Assembly: GCF_002754935.1 (NCBI RefSeq)
Contig: NZ_CP018092.1
Coordinates: forward strand, 1,612,001 to 1,676,000
Length of the DNA: 64,000 nucleotides
Direction of reading: 5' to 3'
Source of the DNA: Thermostichus lividus PCC 6715
Lineage (GTDB): Bacteria; Cyanobacteriota; Cyanobacteriia; Thermosynechococcales; Thermosynechococcaceae
Translations under genes and position numbers: made by a program
Notes under the pieces: generated by a model
What the model saw: only the letters and a program-made list of their open reading frames with translations
Database searches by the model: none
What the model was told of the DNA's origin: nothing
In this document: positions 3,728-23,477 of the stretch, piece by piece
How positions within the stretch are numbered: the first letter of the stretch is position 1
Layout: each line of letters starts with the position of its first letter

Positions 3728-4806
3728 ATGGCACTCGTACCCATGCGCTTGCTGCTGGATCACGCAGCCGAAAATGGTTACGGCATCCCCGCCTTCAACG
3801 TCAATAACATGGAGCAAATCCAAGCGATCATGCAGGCGGCTCACGAAACCGACAGCCCAGTCATTCTGCAAGCGTCGCGGGGTGCCCGTAAATATGCTGG
3901 GGAAAACTTCCTGCGCCATCTGATTCTGGCGGCGGTGGAGACCTATCCCCATATTCCGATTGTGATGCACCAAGACCATGGGAACGAGCCTGCCACCTGC
4001 TACTCTGCCATTCGCAATGGCTTCACCAGCGTGATGATGGATGGCTCCCTCGAAGCGGATGCCAAAACCCCCGCTAGCTATGAGTACAACGTGGCAGTGA
4101 CCAGCGAAGTGGTGAAGGTGGCTCACTCCATTGGTGTGTCGGTGGAAGGGGAACTCGGCTGTCTTGGCTCGCTGGAAACAGGTCAAGGGGAAGCGGAAGA
4201 TGGCCATGGCTTTGAAGGCACCCTTGATCACTCGATGCTGCTCACCGATCCAGATCAAGCGGTGGACTTTGTAGAGCGCACTCAAGTGGATGCCTTAGCG
4301 GTGGCGATCGGCACCAGCCATGGGGCTTACAAATTTACTCGCAAACCCACGGGTGAAATTTTGGCCATCAGCCGCGTTGAAGAAATTCACCGCCGCTTGC
4401 CCAACACCCACCTAGTGATGCACGGCTCTAGCTCCGTCCCGAAGACTTGATCGCTCTAATCAATCAATACGGTGGGGCTATTCCGGAAACCTATGGGGTG
4501 CCGGTGGAGGAAATCCAAAAAGGGATTAAGAGTGGTGTTCGCAAAGTTAACATCGACACTGATAACCGCCTAGCCATTACTGCGGCTGTGCGCGAAGCCC
4601 TTGCGCTTGCTCCCAAGGAATTTGACCCCCGTCACTTCCTCAAACCCTCGATCAAGTACATGCAAAAAGTATGCGCCGATCGCTATCAACAGTTTGGCAC
4701 CGCTGGTAATGCCAGCAAGATCAAGCAACTCAGCCTTGAAGACTACGCTGCCAAGTATGCCAAAGGCGAACTTGCCCAAGTGGTTCAGAAAGCTGTCGGG
4801 GTCTAG
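3728..4806 (+). pseudogene. fbaA: Class II fructose-bisphosphate aldolase, frameshifted (fbaA-type)
   Basis: Two overlapping frames together encode a full class II (zinc) aldolase, which interconverts fructose-1,6-bisphosphate with DHAP and glyceraldehyde-3-phosphate, and makes sedoheptulose-1,7-bisphosphate in the Calvin cycle. Visible marks are [12 protein letters not shown] near the start, the zinc-binding [24 protein letters not shown], and VRKVNIDTDNRLA in the second frame. The break is at about 4441: the DNA reads CCG-AAG-ACT-TGA, while insertion of one G gives [10 protein letters not shown] and continues to the stop at 4806. The restored length is 359 residues, normal for the family. 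TAGGAGGA lies just upstream of the start. A sequencing error is as likely as a real mutation, since this enzyme is normally indispensable in cyanobacteria. Confidence 0.9.
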
Positions 4807-4833
4807 GAAGTCCTGAGACCTGATAGCGTGTAT

Positions 4834-4858
4834 AGGGGTGGCTGCGGTCACCCCTTTT
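4834..4858 (+). terminator. Rho-independent terminator after the aldolase gene
   Basis: GGGGTG (4835-4840) pairs with CACCCC (4849-4854) around a loop GCTGCGGT, followed by TTTT. It lies 28 bases after the aldolase stop and before the sulfotransferase, so the two are probably separate transcripts. Confidence 0.7.
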
Positions 4859-4916
4859 GCGTCTCTTCCTCAGCTTTCTAATAGGTTGCAGCGCCCAGTT
4901 ACACCGAACAGTTGTT

Positions 4917-5777
4917 ATGCATCAAACAATTCAAAGAACCCTTGCTGGCGTGGCCCGGGCAATCGTGCCTGACCTTGTTCACCAGTATCAAAAAAACACG
5001 TGGGCACAGCGCAGCTTACCCCACTTTATTATTCTTGGGGCGCAAAAGGCGGGCACAACCAGCTTGCACGATTATTTAAGCCAACATCCCCAGTTAGTTC
5101 CTTCTCTAAAAAAAGAAGTTCATTTTTTTGATGGCGGCACTCATCCTAGCATTGATACCTTTGAGAAGGGATTGCCTTGGTACCGTGCCCATTTTCCCCT
5201 CGAGAGGGACTTACAGGACGGCAAGCAGACCTTTGAGTCATCGCCGTTGTATCTTTTTCACCCTCGTGTGCCGCAGCGTATTGCCGAGGTTTTGCCCAAC
5301 GTAAAGATGATTGTACTGTTGCGCAACCCCAGCAAGCGGGCAATTTCCCACTACTTTCATGAAAAGCGCAAAGGGCGGGAGCCGCTAGGAATGTACGAGG
5401 CGTTTACTAGTGAAGAACGTCGCTTGGCACCCTTGATAGAAAATGCTAACTATAACAGCCATGGGTTTATTCACCACTCCTACAAGTGTCGCGGCCTCTA
5501 CCAACAGCAACTCGAGCGGTATTTTCAGCTGTTTACCAAGGAGCAATTGCTGATTTTGAGCAGTGAACACTTCTTCAGTGCCACAGCAGCTTGCCTGAGA
5601 ACAGTGTTTGAGTTTATTGGGGTTGATCCAGAGTATCAGGTGACTAACTTGCAGCCCAAAAATGTCGCGAACAATCGGACAGTGGTTCCACCGCTGGTTG
5701 ATGACTACTTAGACGAGTTTTTTAAGCCCCATAATGAGAGACTCTACCAACTGCTAGGGCAGGATTTTGGCTGGTAG
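4917..5777 (+). CDS. Sulfotransferase family protein (PAPS-dependent)
   Basis: About 286 residues from ATG 4917; the frame is open to a TTG at 4857, but that codon falls in the preceding terminator. The 5'-phosphosulfate binding loop is seen as ILGAQKAGTTSLHDYL, and the 3'-phosphate binding segment as MIVLLRNPSKRAISHY. The family moves sulfate from PAPS to sugars, lipids or proteins; in cyanobacteria such enzymes often modify surface polysaccharide or lipids, which is inference here. No signal peptide is evident. It stands alone between the aldolase and a small exported protein on the opposite strand. Confidence 0.85.
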   Translation: MHQTIQRTLAGVARAIVPDLVHQYQKNTWAQRSLPHFIILGAQKAGTTSLHDYLSQHPQLVPSLKKEVHFFDGGTHPSIDTFEKGLPWYRAHFPLERDLQDGKQTFESSPLYLFHPRVPQRIAEVLPNVKMIVLLRNPSKRAISHYFHEKRKGREPLGMYEAFTSEERRLAPLIENANYNSHGFIHHSYKCRGLYQQQLERYFQLFTKEQLLILSSEHFFSATAACLRTVFEFIGVDPEYQVTNLQPKNVANNRTVVPPLVDDYLDEFFKPHNERLYQLLGQDFGW

Positions 5778-6708: not shown

Positions 6709-7832
6709 CTAGTGTTGATTTGCGTGGTGCAGCATGCCAATACCGATCGCCGTCACAACCGTCTTGGGAAGCCAACTGGCAACAATGGGGCTGACAGCTC
6801 CCCCTTCGCCAAACGCTGTAAAAATGAAGCTCACTACGTAGTAACCAAAAATAATCGCTACACTAAGGCCAAAGGCACGTCCCTGACCTTGGCGAGGTGA
6901 GCTAATGCCTAAAACTGCGCCGATCAGGGCGAAACCAACACAAACAAAGGGCAAAGACAGCTTTTCTTGCAACTGCACCTGCCATTGTCGCAGCCGTTTC
7001 ATATCCCCACTTTCGGCCAAGATCTGGCTGTGGTGGTACATTTCGCGACTGGTCATGAATTCAGGATCGCGGGTTTCTTGGGCTAAATCAAGGGGGGTGC
7101 GTGGATAGGCAAAATATCGCTCCCCAAAGGGTTCAACGGCTTCATAGTCTTGGGCGGGGTTGAGGCGATAAAGTGCGCCACGGCGAAATATCCAAACAGC
7201 GCCTTGCCACTCTGCTGCTTCTGCTCTAAGGATTTCTCGCAACTCGCCATCCTGAAAATTTAGTACTGTGACCTCTCCCATCACGCGGCCATCAAACGTA
7301 TGGGCAAAGAACAACTGCTGAAGCTGACCATGGGCAAAGCGACGGTAGAAAATATTTTTGGGATGGTAGGTTGGCACGGGTTGGCCAATGGCCGTGCGCA
7401 GGGTTTCAATGGCGCGGTAGGCAAGGGGGGAGCCACAAGCTCATTGAGGCCAAAGGTTAGGATCAAGGCAAGGAAGCCCGCCATGAGGGCAGGGCAGACC
7501 AAGCGCACTGGGCTAACCCCGCAACTTGTGCAGGCAATGACTTCGCTGCGGCGGGAAAGTTGGCTATAGGCTAACAGTGCCCCAAATAGCACGGCCATAG
7601 GAATACCTAGGACGGCAAAGGTCGGCAGACGTAGGAAAAAAACTTGCACGGCACTAAAAATGCCGAGATTATTTTCGACCATGTTCCGAATGAGGTAGAA
7701 CACAGTACCAATCACGGCGGCGATCGCCGTAAAAATGCCAAACCCAACCACAAAGGGTTGGATCATCTGCCGGAGAATGTAGCGATCCAGTAAGGACAGG
7801 TAAGGCACCGAAATAGCAGTGGGTAGGCGCAT
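6709..7832 (-). pseudogene. LptF/LptG-type permease (YjgP/YjgQ family), frameshifted
   Basis: The first part (from ATG 7832) reads SLLDRYILRQMIQPFVVGF and continues with membrane helices; the second part continues with a periplasmic domain and three C-terminal helices (SLPFVCVGFALIGAVLGISS). This is the LptF/LptG family, whose members form the membrane part of the lipopolysaccharide export ABC complex LptB2FG. The frame breaks at a C6 run on the coding strand (G6 at 7425-7430). Adding one C restores NELVAPPLAYRAIETL and gives about 374 residues, normal for the family. Cyanobacteria often have a single such permease. The DUF3769 protein at 31-33 kb would act in the same export route. Confidence 0.85.
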
Positions 7833-13246: not shown

Positions 13247-13435
13247 AGAGTGTCTGTAAACTAAGCCCCTACAGTACACGGTACCGCTGGAGACTCTACT
13301 AGTGGTTGTACACCGTCTGGGCGTAACCCATAGATGCATGGTGCCTCAACCACTTGGCTGGTTTACACGCAGCCATCACCGTGACTCACCACAGGTGTCC
13401 TACACTTTACAAGTGTACACCGTCGCAACACATGT
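13247..13435. other. Intergenic sequence upstream of rimP with GTACAC-like short repeats
   Basis: No convincing gene. Short motifs of the form GTACAC/GTGTAC recur (near 13236, 13275, 13299, 13364, 13407-13420) with irregular spacing. They could be remnants of a transposon end or simple composition bias. The region must contain the promoter for rimP-nusA-ylxR on the minus strand. Confidence 0.3.
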
Positions 13436-13543
13436 CTGCGCTACTGGATGGATAACAAAGGAGTTGGTCAGTACGGCCTCTCTAAGCTCACGAGTGTTGA
13501 ATTTAGTAAAGAAAGACAGAAAAAAGCAGCCAAACAGCTATGA
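13436..13543 (+). pseudogene. IS605-type tnpB N-terminal fragment
   Basis: Thirty-five codons read LRYWMDNKGVGQYGLSKL and onward to a TGA at 13541-13543. The LRYWMD block followed by a short variable segment is the early part of an OrfB/TnpB protein; the fragment at 34.68 kb has LRYWMDGQGKRTADLNKY at the same place. No start codon, zinc ribbon or catalytic region is present. Confidence 0.6.
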
Positions 13544-13573
13544 TTTGGCTACAAATACAACAAATAATTGTTT

Positions 13574-13846
13574 GTGGGCATCCTAAAATCTCTCGCCGGT
13601 ATTGTCAAATCTTTACTCGCTGAGTTGCCCAGCCGTGATGACCCTAAACTCAATTCAGAGTGATTTTTCCTCTTGTGGCTCACCCTCATTTTAGATAAAA
13701 ACGTCAACAGTTGTCATGACCTATTGTTTCAGTTAAAATACCATAGCGTCAAATTCAACCTGTCCACCGTTTCCAAAGCTTGGAAACACAGAGACCCTGC
13801 GCCAATTCAGAAGATTTACCAAAAATTAGTTCGAAACCTGTGGTAA
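13574..13846 (+). pseudogene. IS4-type transposase N-terminal fragment
   Basis: One frame reads VGILKSLAGIVKSLLAELP, then a TGA in frame near 13660, then LTLILDKNVNSCHDLLFQL and KFNLSTVSKAWKHRDPAPIQ, ending at TAA 13844-13846. This is the N-terminal part of a common cyanobacterial IS4-type transposase as I remember it; the DDE catalytic domain is missing. No terminal inverted repeats could be seen. Confidence 0.5.
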
Positions 13847-20567: not shown

Positions 20568-23477
20568 ATGGCGGCAGGGGAGCGAGAGCAGGTACGGCAC
20601 CTGTTAGTGCTCGAAGATACTGCGGGTCGTCGTCCTATTCTTCTGGAAGCAGCCACCTATTCCATTGGGCGCGACCCTACGAACTCCATTGTGCTGCACT
20701 CAAAGATGGTGTCACGGCAGCATGGCTTACTGTTGCGAGTCACCAGTCCCGAGAGTAATAGCTATCTTTTTCGGCTTATTGATGGCGATCTCCAAGGAAA
20801 GCGCAGCACCAACGGTATTTTAGTGAATGGTCAGCGTACGATCGCCCATGATTTGCGCAGCGGCGACATGATCGTCTTTGGTGGCGATGTGCGGGCACGC
20901 TACTTGACGCTGACCAACCTGACCAATGAAGAATTTAGCGACTTTTGCCAAAGTACAGATGTATTGGGGTTCCTATCGAAAACCACCAACCCGTTTGCCA
21001 CCTTGGTCCCCCATGACCAAGCCAATATTGAAGAATTTAGTGAAGCTGCCCTTGTGCGCCTAGCTTCCTACCCGGAATTGACCCCCACCCCCATTTTAGA
21101 AGTGGATTTAGAGGGTACGGTGACGTATCTGAACCCAGCAGCAGTGATGCAGTTTGGGGATTTACAGCAGCGCAAACTGAGTCACCCCTTGCTCATTGGC
21201 TTGCCAGAGCTAGCGTGCTATATGCAGCAAACCCAAGAAAAAGTCCATGTGCGGGAAGTGGAATACCAGCAGCGTATCTATGAACAGTCCATTCACTATA
21301 TCTACGAGAGTGAATTAATTCGCAGCTATGTGATGGATGTTACCGATCGCAAGCGAGCGGAGGAGCAGTTGCGCAACCAAGCCCGTCGCGAAGCAATTAT
21401 TAACCGGATTATTCAAGCCATGCGGACGACCATGGTGGCGGCGGAAGTCTTGCAAATTACGGCTGATCTTTTACTGGAGGTTCTGGGTTCTAGTCTGTGT
21501 TTGATTACCCAATCTACAGTTGATAGTTCTACCTATGCTGCGCGTGCCCACCTGAACCCGCCCCCGTCACCGTTGGTTGCCCTGAACAGAGCAGTTATTG
21601 CCACCTATGAACCCGCCTTAATCACGGGTGAACAGATCATGTTGATCACGGGAAGTGGGGAGATTCCGGATCGCCTCCAAGAGCAGATCACTCACTGTAA
21701 TGTCAATGCTCTGGTGGTCACCCCCTTAATTTATCTGGGGCAACTGTTGGGGCATATTACTCTGCTGGAGGTTGACAGCGAGGCGATTGAGCGCACCTCG
21801 ATCTTTTGGGGCGATGGCCAAATGCTACAGCAAACTTTACCCAATGGCTGGACTCTTGATGATCTAAGTTTAGTGAAAACCATTGCCGATCAGTGTGCCC
21901 TAGCGATTCATCAAGCCCAGCTTTACCAGAGGGTGCAGGAACTGAATGCGGATCTCGAGCGGCAAGTGCGGGCGCGAACCGCAGAATTAGAGCAAAAAAT
22001 GAAAGAGCTAGAGCGGCTCAATGCGCTCAAGGATGATTTTCTCAGTACCGTGTCTCACGAATTGCGCACCCCCATGGCCAATATGAAAATGGCAATTCAC
22101 ATGCTCAAACACACGCCCATGGACGAACGACAGCAGCGTTATCTGAATATCCTCAGCGAAGCAATTATTAACCGGATTATTCAAGCCATGCGGACGACCA
22201 TGGTGGCGGCGGAAGTCTTGCAAATTACGGCTGATCTTTTACTGGAGGTTCTGGGTTCTAGTCTGTGTTTGATTACCCAATCTACAGTTGATAGTTCTAC
22301 CTATGCTGCGCGTGCCCACCTGAACCCGCCCCCGTCACCGTTGGTTGCCCTGAACAGAGCAGTTATTGCCACCTATGAACCCGCCTTAATCACGGGTGAA
22401 CAGATCATGTTGATCACGGGAAGTGGGGAGATTCCGGATCGCCTCCAAGAGCAGATCACTCACTGTAATGTCAATGCTCTGGTGGTCACCCCCTTAATTT
22501 ATCTGGGGCAACTGTTGGGGCATATTACTCTGCTGGAGGTTGACAGCGAGGCGATTGAGCGCACCTCGATCTTTTGGGGCGATGGCCAAATGCTACAGCA
22601 AACTTTACCCAATGGCTGGACTCTTGATGATCTAAGTTTAGTGAAAACCATTGCCGATCAGTGTGCCCTAGCGATTCATCAAGCCCAGCTTTACCAGAGG
22701 GTGCAGGAACTGAATGCGGATCTCGAGCGGCAAGTGCGGGCGCGAACCGCAGAATTAGAGCAAAAAATGAAAGAGCTAGAGCGGCTCAATGCGCTCAAGG
22801 ATGATTTTCTCAGTACCGTGTCTCACGAATTGCGCACCCCCATGGCCAATATGAAAATGGCAATTCACATGCTCAAACACACGCCCATGGACGAACGACA
22901 GCAGCGTTATCTGAATATCCTCAGCAATGAGTGTGCTCGTGAAACAGAGCTGATCAACGACCTGCTCGACCTTCAGCGCCTAGAAGCGGGGAACAGCCAA
23001 ATTCAACAGGAGCTGATTGATCTCAATACATGGCTCCCCCTCATCCTTGAACCGTTTCATAACCGGATGCAGCAGCGGCAGCAGTGTTTGCGAATCGTCC
23101 AGCCCGCCTCGTTGCCGCCACTGCTCTCCAATCGCCACGCCTTGGAGCGCATTTTGGCAGAGCTACTGAACAATGCCTACAAGTACAGTCCGGCGGGTGG
23201 GCAAATTACGTTATCCTTGCTGCTGCTAGAGGGCGATCGTCTGCAAATTCAAGTCAGCAACCCCTCTGAAATTCCCAGTAGCGAACTGCCGCGCATTTTT
23301 GAAAAGTTTTACCGCATCCCCAACGCCGACCCATGGCAGCAGGGGGGAACCGGCCTAGGCTTGGCCTTGACCCAAAAACTGGTGCAGCAATTACGGGGAG
23401 AGGTTAGTGTCACCAGTACTGCGGGTTACACCACCTTTACCCTTATTTTCCCCATTGCTAAAACTGCTGAGAGTTGA
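20568..23477 (+). CDS. FHA-PAS-GAF histidine kinase with an exact internal tandem duplication
   Basis: 969 residues. Order: FHA domain (about 30-110, with YSIGRDPTNSIVLHSKMVSRQH), a PAS-like domain (about 165-265), GAF (about 275-455), coiled coil, HisKA dimerisation helix with phospho-acceptor His 497 (STVSHELRTP), then the same GAF-coiled coil-HisKA block again (His 753), and one HATPase domain (N box LAELLNNAYKYSPAGG, G box GGTGLGLAL). The repeat is 768 bp in frame, copies 21390-22157 and 22158-22925, apparently identical base for base. Without it the protein would be 713 residues, an ordinary sensor kinase. It starts 14 bases after ftsH. FHA domains bind phosphothreonine, hinting at cross-talk with Ser/Thr kinases. 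No response regulator is adjacent. Confidence 0.9.
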   Translation: MAAGEREQVRHLLVLEDTAGRRPILLEAATYSIGRDPTNSIVLHSKMVSRQHGLLLRVTSPESNSYLFRLIDGDLQGKRSTNGILVNGQRTIAHDLRSGDMIVFGGDVRARYLTLTNLTNEEFSDFCQSTDVLGFLSKTTNPFATLVPHDQANIEEFSEAALVRLASYPELTPTPILEVDLEGTVTYLNPAAVMQFGDLQQRKLSHPLLIGLPELACYMQQTQEKVHVREVEYQQRIYEQSIHYIYESELIRSYVMDVTDRKRAEEQLRNQARREAIINRIIQAMRTTMVAAEVLQITADLLLEVLGSSLCLITQSTVDSSTYAARAHLNPPPSPLVALNRAVIATYEPALITGEQIMLITGSGEIPDRLQEQITHCNVNALVVTPLIYLGQLLGHITLLEVDSEAIERTSIFWGDGQMLQQTLPNGWTLDDLSLVKTIADQCALAIHQAQLYQRVQELNADLERQVRARTAELEQKMKELERLNALKDDFLSTVSHELRTPMANMKMAIHMLKHTPMDERQQRYLNILSEAIINRIIQAMRTTMVAAEVLQITADLLLEVLGSSLCLITQSTVDSSTYAARAHLNPPPSPLVALNRAVIATYEPALITGEQIMLITGSGEIPDRLQEQITHCNVNALVVTPLIYLGQLLGHITLLEVDSEAIERTSIFWGDGQMLQQTLPNGWTLDDLSLVKTIADQCALAIHQAQLYQRVQELNADLERQVRARTAELEQKMKELERLNALKDDFLSTVSHELRTPMANMKMAIHMLKHTPMDERQQRYLNILSNECARETELINDLLDLQRLEAGNSQIQQELIDLNTWLPLILEPFHNRMQQRQQCLRIVQPASLPPLLSNRHALERILAELLNNAYKYSPAGGQITLSLLLLEGDRLQIQVSNPSEIPSSELPRIFEKFYRIPNADPWQQGGTGLGLALTQKLVQQLRGEVSVTSTAGYTTFTLIFPIAKTAES
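21390..22925 (+). repeat. Exact 768-bp direct tandem repeat inside the kinase gene
   Basis: Unit 1 is 21390-22157 and unit 2 is 22158-22925. Both begin GAAGCAATTATTAACC and end CTGAATATCCTCAGC. The junction shares only a few bases (GCGAAGC at the left edge), so it does not look like a product of long homology. The lack of divergence means the duplication is very recent or an assembly artefact. Confidence 0.95.

Follow-up and report, generated by a model that had tools for sequence, protein, structure and literature searches.

Part of a predicted sensor histidine kinase gene in Thermostichus lividus PCC 6715 is present twice, head to tail and in frame, which raises the question of whether the strain has very recently duplicated a piece of a signalling protein, whether the same sequence was written twice during assembly, or whether a kinase with serial sensor modules has been selected. 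The gene lies in the 64-kb stretch of DNA analysed here (C1:1612001-1676000, hereafter the window), part of the single 2,659,739-bp contig of the genome, G000.

An exact in-frame repeat in a sensor kinase gene

Exact comparison of the window with itself revealed no difference between the two 768-bp units, and identity at an offset of 768 is unbroken over 770 bp (21388-22157 against 22156-22925), an extent that rules out a chance repeat. The exact in-frame tandem duplication that the initial annotation had placed at 21390-22925 coincides to the base with these two units (Table 1). Each comprises 256 codons, the reading frame is preserved across both, and the encoded protein segments are likewise identical. 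Outside the 770-bp run, 8 of 30 bases match on the left and 7 of 30 on the right, which is chance level; since the run exceeds the offset by 2 bp, the breakpoints have just the dinucleotide GC in common. No further exact direct repeat of at least 40 bp occurs in the 64-kb window, and the unit itself was not reported by Tandem Repeats Finder, for which the longest period was 500. Zero differences at 768 sites place a 95% upper limit of about 0.4% (3/768) on divergence between the copies, assuming that no recombination has equalised them, and synonymous divergence from the nearest relative compared (G010) is about 0.9-1.3 per site. With 770 of 770 positions matching, the earlier description of the copies as identical, and so either very young or an assembly error, holds.

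Table 1. Coordinates in the window of the kinase gene, its predicted domains and the tandem repeat.
Feature	Coordinates	Strand	Basis
ORF, 969 aa, FHA-PAS-GAF-HisKA(truncated)-GAF-HisKA-HATPase sensor kinase	20568..23477	+	open frame, Pfam
FHA, residues 31-105	20658..20882	+	PF00498, 52.2 bits, first part alone
Weak PAS, residues 171-214	21078..21209	+	PF00989, 18.6 bits, under curated cut-off 22.6
Tandem unit copy 1, E275-S530	21390..22157	+	exact self-comparison
GAF 1, residues 293-447	21444..21908	+	PF01590, 34.5 bits
Truncated HisKA 1, H497 at 22056-22058	22029..22157	+	PF00512
GC, 2-bp overhang common to both breakpoints, at junction	22156..22157	+	self-comparison
Tandem unit copy 2, E531-S786	22158..22925	+	exact self-comparison
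GAF 2, residues 549-703	22212..22676	+	PF01590, 33.5 bits
Complete HisKA 2, H753 at 22824-22826	22797..22991	+	PF00512, profile 2-66/66
HATPase_c, residues 856-963	23133..23456	+	PF02518

The frame is open through all 969 codons, which rules out a broken pseudogene. In keeping with the two GAF domains, two acceptor histidines and one ATPase domain of the initial annotation, the protein has two H-box histidines, each within an intact H-box, one complete HisKA domain and one ATPase domain. HisKA 2 (residues 744-808) bears its H-box, spans the profile and is followed by HATPase_c, both above cut-off, as in a HisKA-type sensor histidine kinase. HisKA 1 covers positions 2-42 of the 66-position profile when residues 1-529 are searched and 2-47 in a fragment extending beyond the junction, so the protein does not contain two complete HisKA domains. 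Because the breakpoint falls inside DHp helix 2, HisKA 1 lacks the conserved second half of the domain and abuts GAF 2 directly; the stretch missing from it is NECARETELINDLLDLQRLEAG, in which the majority of positions are invariant or nearly so among orthologues. The proposed doubling of a GAF-HisKA block is thus correct for GAF, which is present whole twice, and only partly so for HisKA, while the notion of two working dimerisation/His helices in series is not supported, as the first runs into GAF 2 without its second half.

The canonical G1 box of the kinase ATPase domain, DxGxG, is absent from the ATPase domain of the window kinase, which has VSNPSEIP in its place. Since all 25 aligned orthologues (see below) lack DxGxG too, its absence is a lineage trait and does not stem from the duplication, and members of this family are at most putative kinases. 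Most of the related cyanobacterial kinases gathered have a G1 box of the NPSEIP or NQAEIP type, without DxGxG; the motif was found in 3 of 87 distinct hits to a pattern of our own, in a set picked by similarity to the query.

Structure models, both monomers of modest confidence, were made of the single-copy protein of G010 (25 sequences, mean pLDDT 65.5) and of residues 449-969 of the window protein, a 521-aa fragment (26 sequences, mean pLDDT 73.9). In the former, the breakpoints fall within a predicted helix leading from PAS into GAF (249-287) and within DHp helix 2 (519-549), and in the latter a single predicted helix (519-544) spans the junction at 530/531. Given that the window residues ahead of the junction have no aligned relatives (block mean pLDDT 41-74, 68 at the junction) and that both models are monomeric, all that can be read from them is that the fold may tolerate the join.

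The single-copy kinase of the genus and family

Among 28 other genomes of the genus and family (G001-G028), an intact single-copy orthologue was aligned from 25. The gene is interrupted in G001 and lies in two frames in G022; these two, the window itself and four loci repeating genomes already used were dropped before alignment. In G021 the match was to the FHA-PAS part alone, among the matches listed, and from G023, which has two separate single-copy loci, L025 was taken. The 25 frames (691-787 aa) each hold one copy of the unit, so the 768-bp repeat is absent from all of these intact orthologues, and the layout with two GAF and two HisKA domains was seen in none of the orthologues examined. 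With one copy removed, the window kinase aligns with these 25 without gaps at both breakpoints, and the single-copy form is an orphan kinase of 713 aa with the order FHA-PAS-GAF-HisKA-HATPase. A separate scan of genome contigs gave 73 loci, of which only L033-L036 match from FHA to where the unit ends; each of these four has one copy and comes from a genome already in the first set. Residues 1-529, used as query, had matches in 11 of 11 genus genomes, and only in the window's genome was the repeated part matched twice. A HisKA search of the genus (11 genomes, 171 matches by per-genome counts) pointed the same way: inspected by eye, the matches listed include only one frame with two HisKA matches, the window kinase.

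The surroundings of the gene are also conserved, with ftsH upstream and a LOG-family gene downstream in the window and in eight of the ten other genus members. For G001 and G010, the loci as initially cut contained a single neighbour apiece; longer stretches contain ftsH, LOG and purB around the kinase gene in G001, and LOG and purB in G010, where the 4 kb upstream of the kinase hold no match to the window's ftsH. Taken by fragment, orthologues from the genus share 73-86% protein identity with the window kinase, and those from the family's other genera 51-71%. Purifying selection acts on the single-copy gene: dN/dS is 0.03-0.16 wherever pairs and regions allowed an estimate, several of the dS values being saturated. 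In domain order and neighbours the window kinase belongs with this group, and it departs from it in having neither a single GAF nor a single HisKA domain. An old duplication maintained by selection is ruled out, as the copies have not diverged and the relatives examined all lack it. Elsewhere in the same genome, a paralogue of the FHA-PAS input (L196 285-2819, about 47%) is fused to PAS, GGDEF and EAL domains and not to a kinase.

A second lesion was found in G001, whose orthologous gene is interrupted within HisKA by a 1,089-bp transposon (L004 3028-4116); the element encodes a 335-aa DDE transposase, its inverted ends are 13 bp long and its target duplication measures 10 bp. The DHp region of this kinase gene is therefore rearranged in 2 of 11 genus genomes, the window's and G001. 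Given the transposon, at least one lineage seems able to do without the gene; the two lesions, a small number, suggest that it can be dispensed with.

Duplication, assembly fault or selected architecture

We give about an even chance to a real, very recent tandem duplication in an ordinary, conserved orphan kinase gene, and rank it slightly ahead of an assembly fault, the two being near even. Such a duplication would have joined a point within DHp helix 2 to a point within the PAS-GAF linker helix, with 2 bp in common, by illegitimate joining or slippage, to give a copy of practically zero age whose frame was kept by luck. Judged from its domains, the C-terminal GAF2-HisKA2-HATPase portion would be a complete transmitter that probably retains the activity of the single-copy protein, whatever that is. 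HisKA 1 would be a remnant, and H497 is probably not phosphorylated, because the loss of half of helix 2 leaves the DHp hairpin incomplete and no ATPase domain comes directly after it. FHA, PAS and GAF 1 would reach the core only via this remnant and GAF 2, and their control is probably weakened, since an extra GAF, a signalling helix and half a DHp separate them from it.

A distinctly possible alternative, to which we give somewhat less than an even chance, is that overlapping sequence ends were joined uncollapsed, so that 768 bp were written twice and the true gene has 713 codons. Copies without a single difference, in a form that none of the relatives examined shares, are what such a fault would leave, and so is the overhang of 2 bp, as overhangs of 1-2 bp are, by our own reckoning, what random joins yield. 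In the parts of a Salmonella study drawn on here, eight duplications with overhangs of 7-27 bp were tested and those confirmed experimentally had at least 11 bp (PMC3411829). The retained frame speaks against a fault, although it would be kept by chance one time in three. The published account of the sequencing cuts both ways: short-read contigs were used to join two contigs from HGAP, but PacBio subreads averaging about 11 kb at 400-fold coverage should span a 1.5-kb repeat and, with Pilon polishing by 520-fold Illumina data, should have resolved it (PMC9120777).

The quality of the record also weighs on the side of a fault. Stretches of G004 and G010 were sampled for ORFs of 200 aa or more; of those with a match in the G000 stretches, 10 of 125 and 8 of 139, respectively, were split in G000 (together 18/264), as against 0/126 and 0/138 (together 0/264) for G000 ORFs split in the relatives; between G004 and G010 the splits numbered 0/24 and 0/23. 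The sole locus found in the genome for what we take, from its sequence, to be class II fructose-bisphosphate aldolase is among the genes split (window about 4438-4444), and a search for a class I enzyme (PF00274) had no match in G000, nor any in the controls, which makes it uninformative. Relative to G004, the aldolase gene carries a one-base frameshift in window 4400-4480, probably a sequence error, and at 7365-7428, close to six consecutive G, another frameshift divides a conserved membrane-protein-like ORF whose G004 counterpart (L185) has 380 aa. Published surveys, in the portions used here, report that PCC 6715 scores lower in BUSCO, with more of its genes fragmented (PMC11450739), and list 196 (PMC9403480) or 321 (PMC7005997) pseudogenes; yet high counts occur elsewhere, with 944 in strain SCTE542 (PMC7005997), and indel errors and false duplications are distinct kinds of error.

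A survey of tandem repeats over 1,639,500 bases (62% of the genome, taken from the window and 79 stretches, with 4,500 bases left out) found three exact two-copy repeats with units above 200 bp (768, 295 and 266 bp) and one 51-bp low-complexity repeat. The 295-bp repeat (L220 12628-13217) lies over the start of a presumed threonyl-tRNA synthetase gene, whose ORF is complete (606 aa) and is preceded by a partial one of 86 aa. The 266-bp repeat (L230 12058-12589) is intergenic, upstream of a gene that we take to encode a P-type ATPase; both have 1-bp overhangs. These two repeats could indicate a systematic joining error, although both spare the neighbouring genes, the synthetase ORF being whole and the other site intergenic. 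Tandem repeats in the sampled relatives also argue against a fault. The same measure gave just a 42-bp array in 400 kb of G004, which in addition has, outside the measure's count, a near-exact (99.7%) 1,026-bp tandem repeat in a 1,576-aa frame (L176), and 400 kb of G010 yielded one, in a repetitive 2,536-aa ORF (L272), whose unit is 1,002 bp and whose overhang is 42 bp; control samples of this size cannot reveal a difference in rate. Other duplicated segments were noticed as well. A repeat of about 442 bp (L220, about 13317-13760) recurs in G000 at least 28 more times, with 98-100% identity, and occurs in G008 as fragments, many at contig ends. Signalling-gene segments at L161 3100-3556, which overlies a response-regulator match, and 4290-4981 have counterparts of 98-99% identity lying 3,321 and 4,107 bp further downstream, and two ISL3-type transposase genes, 99% identical, lie 1,862 bp apart (L152 1929-3215).

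We think it quite unlikely that the doubled form is a functional, selected architecture in which GAF sensors act in series, the half DHp serves as spacer or decoy and gain and loss of 768 bp perhaps act as a reversible switch. The frame is retained without a stop, the predicted helix continues over the junction and the C-terminal transmitter is complete, as such an architecture would have it, but HisKA 1 is truncated and no second example was found in the genus and family orthologues examined or, among the matches listed, in the genus HisKA search. The copies are also undiverged, and so give no sign of selection for two roles. A real and working duplication with two GAF sensors in series, in which the halved first DHp serves as a spacer or decoy while loss and regain of 768 bp by recombination toggle the coupling of FHA and PAS to the catalytic core, seems to us very improbable. 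A single repeat of near-zero age in a frameshift-rich record calls for caution; if real, it would be a natural kinase spliced within the DHp helix, usable to probe how much signalling survives.

Relation to known systems

A PCC 6715 pseudogene with two duplicated fhlA domains was mentioned in 2023, in a survey of the strain's two-component systems, as highly homologous, minus one fhlA domain, to a cluster of kinases common to thermophiles, the cause of the duplication being given as unknown (PMC9953108). Sections 3.8 and 3.9, which carry no coordinates, in all likelihood describe the window kinase: the strain is the same, there are two GAF (fhlA) domains, and the gene resembles single-copy kinases once one is removed. 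The duplication has thus, in all likelihood, been mentioned before, and this analysis adds the exactness of the repeat, its preserved frame, the truncation of HisKA and the context of the assembly. Unlike the "pseudogene" label in that text, the window frame is open over 969 codons, and HisKA is partly duplicated too; the gene appears to have been set aside because of duplicated domains that come from one repeat. The same text reports two identical response regulators in PCC 6715, which were not located in this analysis.

A literature search, covering its sources in part, returned no histidine kinase with two HisKA domains that was on point, and for intragenic tandem duplications only general precedents. 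As in spontaneous bacterial tandem duplications, to judge from the excerpts used (PMC3411829), the repeat is direct, private to a lineage or cell and bounded by short common ends, although the confirmed cases there had at least 11 bp at the junction and the window repeat has 2 bp. The closest counterparts are the 25 aligned single-copy orphan kinases of the Thermosynechococcaceae, which have the same domains and, in eight of the ten other genus members, the same neighbours; they possess one GAF and one complete HisKA, whereas the window kinase carries a further GAF and a further HisKA that is truncated.
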